Below are positions 4,698 to 9,630 of a stretch of DNA of 64,000 bases, piece by piece (within the stretch, counting starts at the first letter, position 1; the number at the start of each line of letters is the position of its first letter). The DNA comes from Methylogaea oryzae (GTDB lineage Bacteria > Pseudomonadota > Gammaproteobacteria > Methylococcales > Methylococcaceae), in contig NZ_AP019782.1 in the NCBI RefSeq assembly GCF_019669985.1, positions 1,792,001 to 1,856,000 on the forward strand, in the 5' to 3' direction. The position numbers and the translations under genes are program-made. Below the pieces are notes generated by a model. It searched no databases. It was not told where the DNA came from and saw nothing but the letters and a program-made list of their open reading frames with translations.

Positions 4698-6119
4698 ATG
4701 AAACATTTATACGAAACGGTGGCGGAGGAAATCGCCGCCCGCATGGAGCAGGGCGTGTATCGTCCGGGAGAACGGCTGCCCGGCGTGCGCCGTTTGAGCC
4801 AGCAGTTGAACGTGAGCGTTTCGACCGCCCTGGAGGCTTACCGCTTGCTGGAAGACCAGGGGCGCATTCAGGCGCGGGCGCGTTCGGGCTATTACGTGGG
4901 CAGCTTTCAACGGCAAGCCGTCACCGAGCCCGGCATGTCGGACCCGCCGGCGATTCCCTCCCGGGTGACCGGCCAGTCGCTGACGCGGCAGATTCTGCGC
5001 GCGGCCAAGGACCCTTATCAGGTCAATCTCGGCTCGTCCGTGCCGCTTCCGGAGTTTTTCCCGACGCGGGCATTGCAGCAAGCGGCCAACAGCGTAGTGC
5101 GTTTGCACGGCAAGCGCTGTTTCGATGCCGAGGAGCCGCTGGGCAACCCAGAACTGCGGCGACAGATCGCCAAGCGCATGGTGGCGCTACAGTGCGCCGC
5201 CGGGCCGGACGACATCGTCATCACCCACGGCGCGCGGGACGGGGTGCGCCTGGCGCTGAGAGCGGTGTGCCAGCCGGGCGACGTGGTCGCCATCGAGTCG
5301 CCCACCTTCTACGGCTTGCTGCAAGTGATCGAGTCCTGCGGCATGCAGGCATTGGAAATTCCCACCCATCCCCGCGACGGCATTTCCCTGGAGGCTTTGC
5401 AGTTGGCCATCGAGCAGTGGCCGATCAAGGCCTGCCTGCTGATCCCCAATTACAACAATCCGCTGGGCTCCTGCATGCCGGACGAACGCAAGCAGGCGCT
5501 GGCGGCCTTGCTGGAACAGCACGACATTCCCTTGGTGGAGGACGACGTATACGGCGACCTGGGCTTCGCCGCCAAGCGTCCGTCCGTGGCCAAGGCCTGG
5601 AGCCGGCAGGGCAATGCGCTGTATTGCTCGTCCTTTGCCAAGACCCTGGCGCCGGGCTTGCGCGTCGGTTGGCTGGTGCCGGGGCGTTACATGGCGCAGG
5701 TGGAAAATCTGAAATACATGCAGCATCAGGCCACGCCCACCCTGAATCAGCTCATCGTCGCCCAATTGCTGGAGCAGGGCGGTTACGACCGTTACCTGCG
5801 CCAGGTGCGGCAGGAATACGCCCGCAACGTCGCCCGCATGGTGAAGGCGGTGAGCCTGTTGTTTCCCGACGGCACCCGCATGACGCAGCCGGAAGGGGGA
5901 TTCGCGTTGTGGGTGGAGTTGCCGCAAGGCGTCGACGCCATGGAACTGCACCGCCGCGCCAGCCTGGAAGGCATCATCGTCGCGCCCGGCCCGTTGTTTT
6001 CCGCCACGCAAAAGAAATACGGCAATTTCATTCGCCTTAGCTGCGCCGTGCCCTGGTCGGACCGTTTGGAAAAGGCGCTGAAAAAACTGGGGGAAATGGT
6101 CAGGGCGCTGATGCCGTAG
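4698..6119 (+). CDS. MocR/PdxR-type GntR regulator with aminotransferase domain
   Basis: This 473-residue protein has a GntR winged helix at about 1-70 (ERLPGVRRLSQQLNVS is the recognition region). A class I aminotransferase-like domain follows from about 105 to the end. The PLP lysine is Lys315 in SSFAKTLAPGLRVGW, and the Asn-Pro pair of NYNNPLG and the DDVYGD motif bind the cofactor in the family. Such proteins use PLP or an aminated ligand to control transcription, often of vitamin B6, GABA or taurine genes. No target is obvious: downstream genes are on the opposite strand. Confidence 0.9.
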   Translation: MKHLYETVAEEIAARMEQGVYRPGERLPGVRRLSQQLNVSVSTALEAYRLLEDQGRIQARARSGYYVGSFQRQAVTEPGMSDPPAIPSRVTGQSLTRQILRAAKDPYQVNLGSSVPLPEFFPTRALQQAANSVVRLHGKRCFDAEEPLGNPELRRQIAKRMVALQCAAGPDDIVITHGARDGVRLALRAVCQPGDVVAIESPTFYGLLQVIESCGMQALEIPTHPRDGISLEALQLAIEQWPIKACLLIPNYNNPLGSCMPDERKQALAALLEQHDIPLVEDDVYGDLGFAAKRPSVAKAWSRQGNALYCSSFAKTLAPGLRVGWLVPGRYMAQVENLKYMQHQATPTLNQLIVAQLLEQGGYDRYLRQVRQEYARNVARMVKAVSLLFPDGTRMTQPEGGFALWVELPQGVDAMELHRRASLEGIIVAPGPLFSATQKKYGNFIRLSCAVPWSDRLEKALKKLGEMVRALMP

Positions 6120-6180: not shown

Positions 6181-6546
6181 TCAGGCTTCGACGATGTCCG
6201 CTTTGAGGCTAAGCACGAAGGCGATCACCTCGTCGCGCTCGGTCCGAGGCAGCTGAAACGCGTCCAGCGTGGCGTTGAGATGAGCGAAAAAGGCGGACCA
6301 ATCCGCCTCGTCGATTTTCATGCCTTTGTGGGTGGTTTTCATGTCCCGCCCCGTGTAGTACATGGGGCCGCCGCTGCTGGCGCAGAGAAAATCGACCAGG
6401 AGCTGTTTTTCCCGGTTGATGCCGTCTTCGCCGCGGTGCGCCCAAAAGCGGCCCAGGCGCGCATCGCCTTGCAGGCGCGGCAGCAGGTTTTCGGCGACGG
6501 CGGATATGGCGTCGTAGCCGCCGAGACGATGGTATAGCGTGGTCAT
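6181..6546 (-). CDS. Group I truncated haemoglobin
   Basis: This 121-residue protein is the usual length for a group I (trHbN-like) globin. It starts with the family pattern TTLYHRLGGYDAISA and has the proximal haem ligand His73 in TTHKGMKI, with the preceding YYTGRDM segment. Relatives bind O2 and NO and are often implicated in NO detoxification. It follows the small 4-TM gene on the same strand with a 64-base gap and is probably co-transcribed with it. The divergent TetR is the likely regulator. Confidence 0.92.
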   Translation of the reverse strand: MTTLYHRLGGYDAISAVAENLLPRLQGDARLGRFWAHRGEDGINREKQLLVDFLCASSGGPMYYTGRDMKTTHKGMKIDEADWSAFFAHLNATLDAFQLPRTERDEVIAFVLSLKADIVEA

Positions 6547-6610
6547 GGTGGTCTCCTTCGTTTGGAGGCCGAACGCCGGCGGCGTTCGGCCGGTTGATTA
6601 CGCTCGCGGC

Positions 6611-6997
6611 TTATACGGCCGCCAGTATGTCCTTGCTGACCCATAGGAATCCCGCCGTGGAAACGGCGAAACTCGCGGCGGTATACATCCGCGCCCAGCG
6701 GTGTTCCCAGAAGTCCGGCTTGAAGGCGGCGATGGTGAACACCGTGGGATTGGTGAAGCCGCCGATCACCACCAGCCAGCAGGCGGTGACGGACAGGGGA
6801 ATCTTGATGCCGTATAAGCCCAGGCACAGAAGCGCCATGAGGATGTAGTCCACGTGGGCCCGGATCATCGTTTTGTAGTCTTTCAGGAAACCGCCGTCGA
6901 CGCCTTGGATGGGGAACCAGCGCGCGAAGGTCATTAGCCAAGCGGCTGCCAGCGCGGCGACGATCATGACGACGGCGCCTTTCAACAAGATTTCCAT
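6611..6997 (-). CDS. Small 4-TM membrane protein, unrecognised
   Basis: The protein has 128 residues. Four hydrophobic segments lie at about 5-24, 50-66, 68-92 and 105-126. I chose the ATG at 6997 because GGAGC lies just upstream and because the longer frame would run through the operator and the TetR gene. Polar residues inside or beside the helices (RAHVDY at 46-51, GGFTNPT at 79-85) recall the four-helix haem-dependent styrene-oxide-isomerase/HabB group, but this is a remote resemblance judged by eye. It is first in a two-gene unit with truncated haemoglobin. Confidence 0.75.
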   Translation of the reverse strand: MEILLKGAVVMIVAALAAAWLMTFARWFPIQGVDGGFLKDYKTMIRAHVDYILMALLCLGLYGIKIPLSVTACWLVVIGGFTNPTVFTIAAFKPDFWEHRWARMYTAASFAVSTAGFLWVSKDILAAV

Positions 6998-7041
6998 GGG
7001 TGCTCCGTTTTGGTTTGTTATTGGTTTGCGAACGGTGATGG

Positions 7042-7091
7042 CTATACCGACCGGTAAGTCCGTTTGTAATGTTACTGACCGGTCGGTATAG
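7042..7091. promoter_or_regulatory. Two-site inverted-repeat operator of the TetR/4-TM divergent promoters
   Basis: Arms CTATACCGACCGGT (7042-7055) and ACCGGTCGGTATAG (7078-7091) are perfect 14-bp inverted copies 22 bases apart. Each arm is itself nearly palindromic (TACCG-AC-CGGTA in the left), so each may bind one TetR dimer. The pair lies between the divergent starts at 6997 and 7127, as expected for autoregulation together with control of the 4-TM/haemoglobin unit. Confidence 0.8.
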
Positions 7092-7126
7092 TTGCAAGCC
7101 GACACAGCGTGAAAGGGTGAGTCCTT

Positions 7127-7693
7127 ATGGCCAGCAACCTGAAAGAGCGGATTCTCGACGCCGCTACCGGGCTTTTTTACAGCCAGGGTATCAAGGCCAC
7201 CGGTGTCGACGCCGTCGTCAAGGCGGCGGGCACCACCAAGATGAGCCTTTACAAATACTTTCCGTCCAAGGACGACCTGGTGATCGCCTTTCTGCGCAAG
7301 CGCGACGAGGACTTCACCCGCTGGTTCGTCGAGCAGCTGGAAGCGCGCGCCGGCGATCCCCGCGACAGGCTGTTGGCGGTGTTCGACCTGATCGGCGAAT
7401 GGATGGACGCCCCCGAATTCCGCGGCTGCGCCTTCATCAACGCCTCGGCGGAATTTCCGCTGGAAAACAATCCGGTGCACCGGGTTTCCACGGAGTTCTA
7501 CGACAAATTCCGCGCCTATATGGCCGGGCTGGCGGGCTTGTGCGGCGCGGAAGATCCCCACGGTCTGGCGCTGCAGCTGGGACTGCTGGTGGAAGGCGCC
7601 ATCGTGTCGGAGCAGATGAAGCGCGGCTCCGGCGCGGCGGCGGCGGCCAAGCGAGCGGCGGCGGTTTTGATCGACGCCGCTTTGCCTCGATAG
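7127..7693 (+). CDS. TetR/AcrR-family regulator
   Basis: The protein has 188 residues. The N-terminal HTH (about 5-52) shows TGVDAVVKAAGTTKMSLYKYF. The ligand domain has the segment PEFRGCAFINASAEFP (97-111), common in a TetR subgroup that answers to electrophiles or oxidants, with Cys101 as a possible sensor. It sits divergently from the 4-TM/haemoglobin genes with a duplicated operator between them, and 27 bases before the PNPOx-like gene. It therefore very likely represses itself and both neighbours. The signal it senses is unknown. Confidence 0.9.
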   Translation: MASNLKERILDAATGLFYSQGIKATGVDAVVKAAGTTKMSLYKYFPSKDDLVIAFLRKRDEDFTRWFVEQLEARAGDPRDRLLAVFDLIGEWMDAPEFRGCAFINASAEFPLENNPVHRVSTEFYDKFRAYMAGLAGLCGAEDPHGLALQLGLLVEGAIVSEQMKRGSGAAAAAKRAAAVLIDAALPR

Positions 7694-7720
7694 TCACAAT
7701 TCACTTCAAACGGAGCGGCA

Positions 7721-8353
7721 ATGAGCGACTTTTTTCACGACGGCAGCCGTCGATTTCAGGACCGATTCGAAACCCGCCAGCTGGCCGAGCGCACCGTGGA
7801 GCTCATCGTCAGCGACGTCATCAGCGAGGCGGACCAGCGGTTCATCGAGCAGCAGAACATGTTTTTCCTCGCCACGGTCGATCCGCAGGGGCGGCCGAAT
7901 TGCTCCTACAAAGGCGGCAGCGCCGGCTTGGTGCGGGTGCTGGACGAAACGACCATCGCGTTTCCGCTCTACGACGGCAACGGCATGTACCTTTCCGCCG
8001 GCAACGTGCTGGCCAATCCCCACGTCAGCCTGCTGTTCATGGACTTCCAGCGCCAAGCGCGCCTGCGCTTGAACGGCGAGGCGTCGATCCAAGACGACGA
8101 TGCGTTGCGGGAGCTGTGGCCGGAGGCGGAGCTGGTGGTGCGGGTCAAGCTGCGGGAAATGTTCCCCAACTGCCCGCGCTACATCCACAAAATGGCCCTG
8201 GTGGAGGAGTCCCCCTTCGTGCCGAAACAGGGCTGCGACACGCCGCCGCCGGCCTGGAAAAGCCTGGAGGCCGTGGCCGACGTGTTGCCGCCGAAGGACG
8301 CGCATCTGGCGGGCCGCGACCAGGATGCCGCGGCGGCGCTCAATCGCGACTGA
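7721..8353 (+). CDS. Pyridoxamine-5'-phosphate-oxidase-like flavoprotein
   Basis: This 210-residue protein has a split-barrel PNPOx-like fold at about 35-150 (MFFLATVDPQGRPNCSYKGG, then LLFMDFQRQARLRLNG). Family members bind FMN, F420 or haem, and few of this branch make pyridoxal phosphate. A helical N-terminal extension of about 35 residues precedes the domain. It shares the plus-strand unit with TetR and may be an oxidoreductase in the same stress response as the truncated haemoglobin. It converges with the nit cluster, 14 bases apart. Confidence 0.85.
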   Translation: MSDFFHDGSRRFQDRFETRQLAERTVELIVSDVISEADQRFIEQQNMFFLATVDPQGRPNCSYKGGSAGLVRVLDETTIAFPLYDGNGMYLSAGNVLANPHVSLLFMDFQRQARLRLNGEASIQDDDALRELWPEAELVVRVKLREMFPNCPRYIHKMALVEESPFVPKQGCDTPPPAWKSLEAVADVLPPKDAHLAGRDQDAAAALNRD

Positions 8354-8367
8354 GCCTTCGGCCGGCT

Positions 8368-9630
8368 TTAGGCCGCCGCGCGCTGGGACGCCGAGCGTTC
8401 GGCGATGGTCGCGGCCAGGTATTCGGTGTCTTCCGCGATGCCCAGGAAGCGCCCCGACCCCCAGGTGTTGAGCCAGGGCAGGCCGACGAAATACAGCCCT
8501 GGCGCGTCGGTGACGCCGCGCCGGAATTGCGGGTGGCCGCGGCCGTCGAAGACGGGCAGTTCGATCCAGCGGTAGTCCGGGCGGAAACCGATGGCCCAAA
8601 CGATGGCGGTGATGCCGGCCTCGTCGGCGTCCACGCTCAGCGGCTCGGATTCCGGTTCCCAGACCTTGCGGAACGGCGCTTCCTCCGGCGCGCCGATGCG
8701 GTTGGCCGCGATGTACTTGTCGATGTCGGCGCGTATCCGCGCGTAAACCTCGTCGGCCTCGTCCAGGTTTTTGCGCAGGTCCGGCTTGAATTCCAACCGC
8801 GCGCCCTGGATGCCGGCCATGCTGCCGTAAAGCTTCACGCCTTCCAGGGCGAAGCGGCGCAGGTCGATTTCGTGGCCGCCGTTGCGTCCGGTCAGGTAAT
8901 GGTTGGTCTTGTGCCGCGCCTCGTCGCCCAGCGGGTGCCGGTCGACGGTGAGGTCGTAAAAGCCCAGGTCGTACAGCCATTCGGTGGTTTCGCGGCCGCG
9001 GTACAGGCGCGGCGAGCGGGGCGCGCTGCCCACCGCCAGATGCACTTTGCGGCCGGCCAGGTGCAGGTCTTCCATGATCTGCACGCCGGATTGGCCGGAG
9101 CCCACCACCAGCACTTCGCCGGGCGGCAGTTGGCCGGGATTGCGGTAATGCATCGAATGCACCTGGGCGATGCGTTGCGGCAGGCTGTGGGCGTAATCGG
9201 GCACGATGGGTATGTCGTAGCCGCCGGTGGCCACCACCACATGGTCGGCGGTGTAGTCGCCGTCGCTGGTGCGGATTTCCAGCCGGTCCTGTTTGCCGCG
9301 CCGCACGCGGGTAACGGCCACGCCCTGCTTGATGGGCGCGTCGACCTTGCGGGCGAAGGCTTCGATGTATTCGACGATTTCGTCCTTGAGCATGAAGCCT
9401 TTGGGGTCGTCGCCCTGATAGGGGAAATCCGGCAGCCGGCACTGCCAGTTGGGCGTCACCAGGCAAAAGCTGTCCCAGCGGTCGGCGCGCCAGGAGTGGC
9501 CGATGCGGTTTTTCTCGAAAACGATGTGCCGGATGTCCCGCTTTTGCAGTTGGTAGCTCATCGACAGGCCGGCCTGGCCGCCGCCGACGATGATGACCGG
9601 GTAGTGTTCGCTGGGATGTGGTTGGTTCAT
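8368..9630 (-). CDS. nitH: Nit1C flavin-dependent oxidoreductase (MSMEG_0569 family)
   Basis: This is a 420-residue flavoprotein monooxygenase-like enzyme. FAD is bound by GGGQAGLSMSYQL (about 17-29) and NAD(P)H by the second Rossmann motif VVGSGQSGVQIMEDL. WRADRWDSF after the first motif is typical of the CzcO/FMO-like group. The family occurs as the last gene of Nit1C clusters, and its substrate is not established to my knowledge. It is the terminal gene here, 61 bases after nitG. An ATG start with the FAD motif directly following fixes the N-terminus. Confidence 0.9.
   Translation of the reverse strand: MNQPHPSEHYPVIIVGGGQAGLSMSYQLQKRDIRHIVFEKNRIGHSWRADRWDSFCLVTPNWQCRLPDFPYQGDDPKGFMLKDEIVEYIEAFARKVDAPIKQGVAVTRVRRGKQDRLEIRTSDGDYTADHVVVATGGYDIPIVPDYAHSLPQRIAQVHSMHYRNPGQLPPGEVLVVGSGQSGVQIMEDLHLAGRKVHLAVGSAPRSPRLYRGRETTEWLYDLGFYDLTVDRHPLGDEARHKTNHYLTGRNGGHEIDLRRFALEGVKLYGSMAGIQGARLEFKPDLRKNLDEADEVYARIRADIDKYIAANRIGAPEEAPFRKVWEPESEPLSVDADEAGITAIVWAIGFRPDYRWIELPVFDGRGHPQFRRGVTDAPGLYFVGLPWLNTWGSGRFLGIAEDTEYLAATIAERSASQRAAA

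Follow-up and report, generated by a model that had tools for sequence, protein, structure and literature searches.

A divergent TetR-linked membrane protein gene of Methylogaea oryzae belongs to a conserved family with a likely link to one-carbon metabolism

Within the window analysed here, a stretch of 64,000 nt from Methylogaea oryzae (contig NZ_AP019782.1 of assembly GCF_019669985.1, positions 1,792,001-1,856,000, forward strand), a gene for a TetR-type repressor faces the gene of an unnamed membrane protein with four predicted transmembrane helices (4-TM protein). The two genes very probably form a TetR-autoregulated divergent switch, to judge from a conserved pair of operator-like sites between them. 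The 4-TM family was found, as far as tested, only in bacteria with one-carbon (C1) names or a C1 marker gene, and a C1 link of the family is likely. By gene order, the conserved core is the TetR // 4-TM pair; a PNPOx-like flavoprotein is a frequent partner and a globin a rare one. An earlier note on this DNA had described these four genes and their families, which the coordinates and, for three of them, Pfam scores above the cut-offs bear out. The host genome is a single contig of 4.02 Mb; window coordinates are used throughout, and L and G numbers denote loci and genomes of the comparison set. The features of the locus are as follows.

6181..6546, minus strand: group 1 truncated haemoglobin, 121 aa (Bac_globin 49.7 bits, cut-off 21)
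6611..6997, minus strand: 4-TM membrane protein (TM4), 128 aa (no family model above cut-off)
7043..7058, unstranded: putative operator O1, TATACCGACCGGTAAG, the one closer to the 4-TM gene (kept with O2 in orthologous regions)
7064..7092, plus strand: predicted sigma-70-like tetR promoter, TTGTAA, 17 nt, TATAGT (consensus match only)
7075..7090, unstranded: putative operator O2, CTGACCGGTCGGTATA, within the predicted tetR promoter (conservation and overlap with the promoter-like site)
7127..7693, plus strand: TetR/AcrR repressor, 188 aa (TetR_N 58.2 bits, cut-off 24; TetR_C_13 29.9 bits, cut-off 27)
7721..8353, plus strand: PNPOx-like split-barrel flavoprotein, 210 aa, 27 bp behind tetR (PNPOx_N 69.5 bits, cut-off 28.1)

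Searching with the 4-TM protein gave matches in 124 stretches. Of these, 100 were confirmed, and the best 80 were taken as loci, with flanks of at most 5 kb per side, that were compared with the proteins of the window. A divergent TetR orthologue (more than 60% identity) faces the 4-TM gene in 27 of the 80 loci, and PNPOx lies directly behind tetR in 16 of these 27, with a gap of at most about 66 bp. The TetR // 4-TM pair is a recurrent one in Methylococcales. In L051 the TetR orthologue is broken into two pieces. Left out of the count were L064, whose TetR is a 37% relative 1.8 kb away, and L043 (55%) and L044 (33%), where TetR lies on the same strand; L007 and L069 are uninformative on this point, their contigs ending 126 and 437 bp upstream. 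In a tree of 82 4-TM proteins, which has few columns, many open forks and G006 on a long branch, the TetR label requires 8 changes, at least 5 of them forced by branches with good support; linkage of TetR and PNPOx is present in both main branches. Of 61 genomes surveyed (that of the host plus 60 from relatives), 10 have the 4-TM protein proper (E <1e-40). TetR at 70% identity or more is present in 6, with the 4-TM gene at most 1 kb away in 5 of them; in G006 a ferredoxin-like gene sits between the two. PNPOx at 75% identity or more is present in 4 genomes and adjoins TetR in 3. The four-gene module of the earlier note thus recurs as far as TetR and the 4-TM protein are concerned, and in part PNPOx, but not as a fixed unit with the globin, which has no match in any of the 80 loci.

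Some observations weigh against a repressor-controlled 4-TM unit. No adjacent TetR orthologue is found in 53 of the 80 loci, and the 20 weakest of the 100 confirmed relatives lie outside the set from which these counts come. G031 (L145) retains a 70% TetR together with one operator (1 mismatch), the 4-TM gene being gone. In the three genomes with an unlinked PNPOx gene there is no upstream site with fewer than 4 mismatches (one of them offers only 56 bp of upstream sequence), and the idea that PNPOx stays under the same operator when unlinked was rejected. Several genes read as AraC-type surround TetR in L145.

The earlier note had pointed to two perfect 14-bp inverted arms in the intergenic region, and the arms CTATACCGACCGGT (7042-7055) and ACCGGTCGGTATAG (7078-7091) are indeed exact reverse complements; the repeat can be lengthened to 18 nt at 94% identity. 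The arms are, to judge from their letters, two copies of one TetR-type operator of the form TATACYGRYCRGTATA, each an imperfect palindrome, and they resemble a single inverted repeat because both sites are degenerate on opposite sides. The test set comprised 28 intergenic regions, that of the window and the 27 with a divergent TetR; L064 was excluded on account of its distant TetR. With a pattern derived from viewing these same regions, which are related by descent, the best two non-overlapping matches have on average 3.9 summed mismatches, as against 12.2 in dinucleotide shuffles. In 27 of the 28 regions at most 1 of 500 shuffles equalled the real region (L040: 8 of 500), and the weakest pairs, in L036, L040 and L042, have 8-9 mismatches each. 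The sites are spaced 27-33 bp apart in 26 of the 28 regions (64 in L050, 53 in L051), and one operator is perfectly palindromic in L004, L010, L016, L027, L031 and L051. An alignment of seven intergenic regions has O1, O2 and the -10 region as its conserved blocks. A consensus scan of the region gives one promoter-like site where 0.2 are expected, and O2 falls within the spacer and -10 of this site.

With no more than 1 mismatch allowed, the whole host genome has three copies of the 14-mer, two at this locus and one inside an open reading frame that reads as a sigma-54 activator. When up to 2 are allowed, the pattern has 13 genome matches, fewer than the control (34), and a wider TetR regulon in this genome was rejected. 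A pair that is conserved, and an operator nearly confined to the locus, fit an autoregulated local switch. The repressor itself exceeds the cut-offs of both TetR_N and TetR_C_13 and so falls in the TetR_C_13 class; the listed matches to specific regulator models all stay below their cut-offs. Its score against the NemR structure 4yze (33.6 bits) is far below that against 3jsj (85.9). The closest TetR paralogue in the host genome is 37% identical; it faces a gene read as SnoaL-like (L002, 1465-2067, plus strand), and a gene near-identical to that of the L002 pair lies near the 4-TM locus of G006 (L130, 4733-5200, minus strand). The flavoprotein belongs to the PNPOx_N superfamily and, with 91.1 bits, fails the cut-off of 170 of TIGR04025, the MSMEG_1061 family of flavin mononucleotide (FMN) flavoproteins.

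The 4-TM protein is strongly conserved. Among 81 proteins, those of the window and the 80 nearest loci, 33 of 128 positions are invariant across members from alpha-, beta- and gammaproteobacteria. The signature reads R46-A-H48-x-D50, M54, G79-G80, N83-P84 and F87; His48, Asp50, Met54, Gly79, Gly80, Asn83 and Phe87 are the same in all 81, and H, D, M, G, N and F likewise in 9 of 9 paralogues. The divergent copy of G006 keeps these residues, with Lys in place of R46. The taxon names of 68 of the 80 loci are those of methylotrophs or methanotrophs (67 Methylo- and one Hyphomicrobium sp. NDB2Meth4), whose bearers are C1 users. The remaining 12 loci come from 11 genomes, one of them a methanotrophic symbiont of Bathymodiolus, and all 11 carry Fae (TIGR03126) above cut-off. 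The 4-TM profile was also run over 370 gammaproteobacterial genomes, sampled evenly. It occurs in 6 and Fae in 49; each of the 6 has Fae as well, an overlap with a chance of about 4 in a million by our own arithmetic, four of the six belonging to one order and so not being independent. Four of the six profile matches are strong; those in G010 and G182 are at paralogue level only. The family is absent from 43 Fae-bearing genomes of this sample. It was not found in phages, and among plasmids only in Methylocystis parvus (two records of one plasmid), which, searched by itself, has no Fae. The earlier note missed both this confinement and the mxa-like neighbourhood described below.

What the 4-TM protein might be was approached through its predicted structure. 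It has no Pfam or NCBIfam match above cut-off (22 members were scanned against Pfam), as the earlier note implied in calling it unrecognised. A first AlphaFold2 model, from 22 sequences (predicted local distance difference test score, pLDDT, 83.3), gave no clear structural match, and styrene oxide isomerase (SOI) was not among the VIA-align matches listed for it. With a second model, of the Hyphomicrobium homologue (51 sequences, pLDDT 90.8), the top VIA-align match is residues 380-521 of cytochrome c oxidase subunit I (Z 12.2, 122 residues, 16% identity), a haem-binding part of the oxidase. SOI (8pnu) gives Z 10.7 with a root-mean-square deviation of 2.8 over 125 of 129 aligned residues at 14% identity, and MAPEG chains lie below both, at Z 8-9 over 110-122 residues. 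In the profile alignment with SOI, His48 falls on His58, N83 on N99, F92 on F108 and P94 on P110. A paper on SOI names His58 of SOI as the residue that binds haem b and N64, D95, N99 and Y103 as the pocket network; it also reports that a DALI search with SOI gave no substantial structural relatives (PMC11374702). Of the network N99 alone is kept here. The others correspond to Met54, Gly79 and Phe87, replacements that are themselves invariant in all 81 proteins, and the epoxide rearrangement of SOI is not expected of the 4-TM protein because of them.

Against an SOI-like fold stand the warning of the tool itself that Z under about 13 can be common among helical bundles, and the lack of any Foldseek match at E <=0.001 with either model. 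A comparison by hhalign with four SOI proteins is weak (E 0.05-0.06, or 0.19 with paralogues added), and column-shuffled controls scored as high in 2 of 60 cases (9 of 60 with paralogues). From a modest charge bias, loops 1 and 3, the basic ones, are predicted to lie inside, in the cytoplasm, opposite to SOI. With NF045734, the StyC model, a true StyC scores 251.7 bits; the 4-TM protein of the window does not match it, its only hit being to GldL, at E 0.16. An assignment to SOI by sequence was rejected, since the hhalign statistics are not significant. On the models, we nevertheless lean towards an SOI-like fold, and hold haem binding to be a tentative proposition that falls a little short of an even chance. 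The idea of a haem-dependent protein, which the earlier note had raised, gains some structural support from the Z scores of SOI and the oxidase.

The MAPEG chains bring in a different possibility. The 4-TM protein could be a divergent glutathione enzyme of the MAPEG type, with the adducts that formaldehyde or other electrophiles form with glutathione as its substrates. The Z scores over most of the chain are in its favour, as is the orientation: MAPEG proteins are N-out with the loop between helices 1 and 2 inside, and the same is predicted here. The 'RAH' at the start of helix 2 also resembles the MAPEG motif AHxN. However, PF01124 was found in 0 of 22 members at E <=1, and hhalign covers 14 columns only, with shuffled controls scoring as high in 4 of 60 cases (31 of 60 with paralogues). 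MAPEG by sequence was rejected, there being no PF01124 match and no significant hhalign result. As the SOI and oxidase structures also fit better, we regard a MAPEG-like enzyme as quite improbable.

The gene neighbourhoods outside the TetR-linked loci were taken from a cluster analysis of the 80 loci, with protein families scanned in L047, L049 and L070. In 8 of the 80 loci (L041, L047, L048, L049, L058, L062, L063 and L076) the 4-TM gene has genes resembling those of the mxa group at a distance of at most about 3.5 kb (about 2 kb in L058 and L062); the groups concerned are Methylophaga, Methylotenera and Methylovorus. One histidine-kinase cluster is likewise represented in 8 (L041, L047, L048, L055, L070, L076, L079 and L082). 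The scans returned MoxR AAA, DUF58, VWA, TPR, VWA, a LuxR-type regulator and HisKA_3 kinases, from whose order the names mxaR, S, A, C, K and L may be read. In Methylophaga (L047) the moxR-like gene has the 4-TM gene on its 5' side, and in Methylotenera (L049) the 4-TM gene is 3' of a VWA gene, behind a ferredoxin-like protein (below cut-off).

These neighbourhoods could mean that the 4-TM protein is no enzyme and serves as a sensor or assembly partner in methanol dehydrogenase regulation, together with a two-component system. Besides the kinase and the mxa-like genes, present in 8 of 80 loci each (a kinase also in M. parvus), a kinase, a regulator and the 4-TM gene stand in one row in Hyphomicrobium (L070). 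PMC5018670 treats MxaY, MxaB and mxaXYZ in methanol dehydrogenase regulation and describes mxaXYZ as a three-gene operon in Paracoccus. However, 68 of the 80 loci have neither the kinase nor mxa-like genes, and the kinase of that cluster is found in 0 of the 27 TetR-linked loci. We give a purely regulatory or assembly role a small probability.

Other neighbours were also seen. Ferredoxin-like proteins ([2Fe-2S] thioredoxin type, below cut-offs) stand beside the 4-TM gene in G006, a gammaproteobacterium (L130, 6675-6962, minus strand), and in L049 (4638-4934, plus strand), and among Methylotenera/Methylopumilus loci in L049, L063 and L064. Judged from translations, the 4-TM gene precedes a gene read as nadA in Methylomonas (L021-L023, L026 and L029) and faces one read as thiC in Methylophilus (L075, L077, L081 and L083). 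The host genome has a distant 4-TM paralogue (E 2e-13; L085, 1471-1932, plus strand; G000:C1:3459398-3459787) beside a divergent gene read as AraC-type, and similar paralogues exist in other genomes. One on the M. parvus plasmid (L136) faces a helix-turn-helix gene and adjoins the kinase/4-TM/globin locus.

The globin is a group 1 truncated haemoglobin by its Bac_globin score, and its proximal His aligns with that of HbN. Globins of at least 56% identity occur in 4 of the 61 genomes (the window's own, G022, G059 and G006), and two of the four are broken. That of G059 carries one internal stop and that of G006 is a remnant, while that of G022 is intact in a 72%-complete genome with no 4-TM match. 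The order in G006 is globin remnant, ABM protein, 4-TM protein and ferredoxin-like protein // TetR, then a MocR remnant. The ABM-domain protein there (PF03992; L130, 5637-5915, minus strand) is HmuQ-like, a haem-degrading type, at E 4e-7, below the HmuQ model cut-off. On plasmid pMpar-2 of Methylocystis parvus the genes run regulator-kinase // 4-TM, group 1 truncated haemoglobin, and the intact globin, 61% identical to that of the window, lies right behind the 4-TM gene. By gene order, the link of globin and module is real yet sporadic, in two classes; the globin as a fixed part was rejected, given its absence from the 80 loci.

The earlier note had favoured a defence against nitric oxide (NO) or electrophiles. 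In such a scheme, which may be widened to oxygen, TetR senses via Cys101, the globin detoxifies NO, the flavoprotein reduces and the 4-TM protein helps. Cys101, which the note had singled out, is present in the window protein and in 27 of 27 divergent TetR orthologues, although a GC motif is common in this TetR class. The haem- or redox-type neighbours (globin, PNPOx, and in G006 the weakly HmuQ-like ABM and ferredoxin-like proteins) also speak for defence. Against it, the globin is absent from the 80 loci, and Leu takes the place of the Tyr (B10; 2gkn) and Gln (E11; 2gkm) seen in the HbN entries; B10 is also Leu in the M. parvus and G022 globins. Tyr B10 and Gln E11 are presumably the native letters of HbN, whose entries include variants, and important for NO dioxygenation. 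The distal pocket is thus apolar, as far as sequence tells, and the globin an optional passenger. Moreover, the 4-TM family tracks C1 metabolism, which would be unexpected of a general NO defence. NO defence is weakened by these results, and the defence scheme as a whole seems improbable.

We therefore consider the following course of events for a TetR-controlled 4-TM protein in C1 metabolism. TetR would hold the tetR and 4-TM promoters down until a small-molecule ligand binds; the inducer would come from C1 oxidation, an aldehyde or other electrophile being a guess. Ligand-bound TetR would release both divergent genes, and the 4-TM protein would be made as a small oligomeric membrane protein with an SOI-like four-helix fold. 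Where subunits meet, haem b or a different ligand might be held by His48, which stands where helix 2 begins, on the predicted cytoplasmic side. The protein would serve redox, gas binding or detoxification beside methanol/formaldehyde oxidation, with the flavoprotein, and the globin or ferredoxin-like protein where present, as soluble accessories. Whether the 4-TM protein is in this sense an auxiliary of C1 metabolism, a membrane protein that binds haem or another ligand and is controlled by the repressor, we judge to be evenly balanced. A bolder form, which we consider unlikely, would make it the founding member of a family of membrane-bound, SOI-fold haem b proteins specific to methylotrophs, an overlooked component of C1 oxidation in which a His48/Met54 interface site replaces the epoxide pocket; its regulators would be TetR in Methylococcales, a two-component system in Methylophaga, Methylocystis and Hyphomicrobium, and an AraC-like protein for the paralogue. 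Since an exporter gene faces many TetR genes, the TetR-linked 4-TM protein might instead carry a C1 metabolite across the membrane, as a small transporter or channel whose induction resembles that of many efflux genes. We find this highly improbable, because the polar R46, H48, D50 and N83 near one membrane face and the SOI- or oxidase-like fold better suit a bound cofactor.

Two further genes flank the locus.

4698-6119, plus strand: MocR/PdxR-like GntR-aminotransferase regulator (269.9 bits, under the PdxR cut-off of 320), converging on the globin gene
8368-9630, minus strand: MSMEG_0569-family flavoprotein, the right-hand neighbour (TIGR04046 641.6 bits, cut-off 498.35)

The MocR neighbour is found in 0 of the 80 loci. 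In G006 two short stretches behind TetR (L119, from 3231, minus strand) are 59-70% identical to it, a remnant that may mean this gene, too, was formerly shared. The MSMEG_0569 flavoprotein (P0005) likewise has no match in the 80 loci. The border with a cyanide-related nit cluster, to which the earlier note had drawn attention, looks coincidental, and a cyanide/nit link was not borne out.

In the literature searched (titles and abstract openings), which leaves most subscription papers outside, there is no account of this module, and earlier publication is hence possible. The same search gave no paper on mxaRSACKL, none on hydroxylaminobenzene mutase together with SOI, and none joining SOI, methanotroph and methylotroph; papers pairing SOI with one of the latter two are not distinguishable there. 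Methanotrophs and methylotrophs govern methane and methanol turnover, and an unnamed, conserved 4-TM family, confined to C1 bacteria as far as tested and found near mxa-like genes, is a good candidate for a missing function. If it proved to be a natural relative of SOI in C1 metabolism, the SOI fold would serve more widely as a haem scaffold. Both switch and protein are readily testable, thanks to the conserved operator pair and the small size.

The 4-TM protein and its genes can be compared with several known systems. With SOI StyC (8PNU; PMC11374702), its best whole-chain structural match, the 4-TM protein shares a small size and four helices, a His at the start of helix 2 and an Asn in helix 3 in the same register, and the spacing N-x3-[YF]-x4-F-x-P; it differs in the low identity, the three replaced pocket residues, the opposite predicted orientation and the lack of an NF045734 match. 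The match in cytochrome c oxidase subunit I is a segment of a larger multi-helix protein. MAPEG proteins (mPGES1, LTC4 synthase) have four helices and a similar predicted orientation, with a poorer fit and no Pfam match. The adjacent kinase, response regulator and 4-TM genes of Hyphomicrobium, Methylophaga and Methylocystis recall mxaXYZ (PMC5018670), and their regulators may correspond to MxaY/MxaB, whereas the locus of the window uses TetR. That switch resembles the divergent TetR autorepressors of the NemR/AcuR type, which likewise combine TetR_N and TetR_C_13, a conserved Cys and palindromic sites in a shared promoter region; unlike them, its target gene belongs to an unnamed membrane family.

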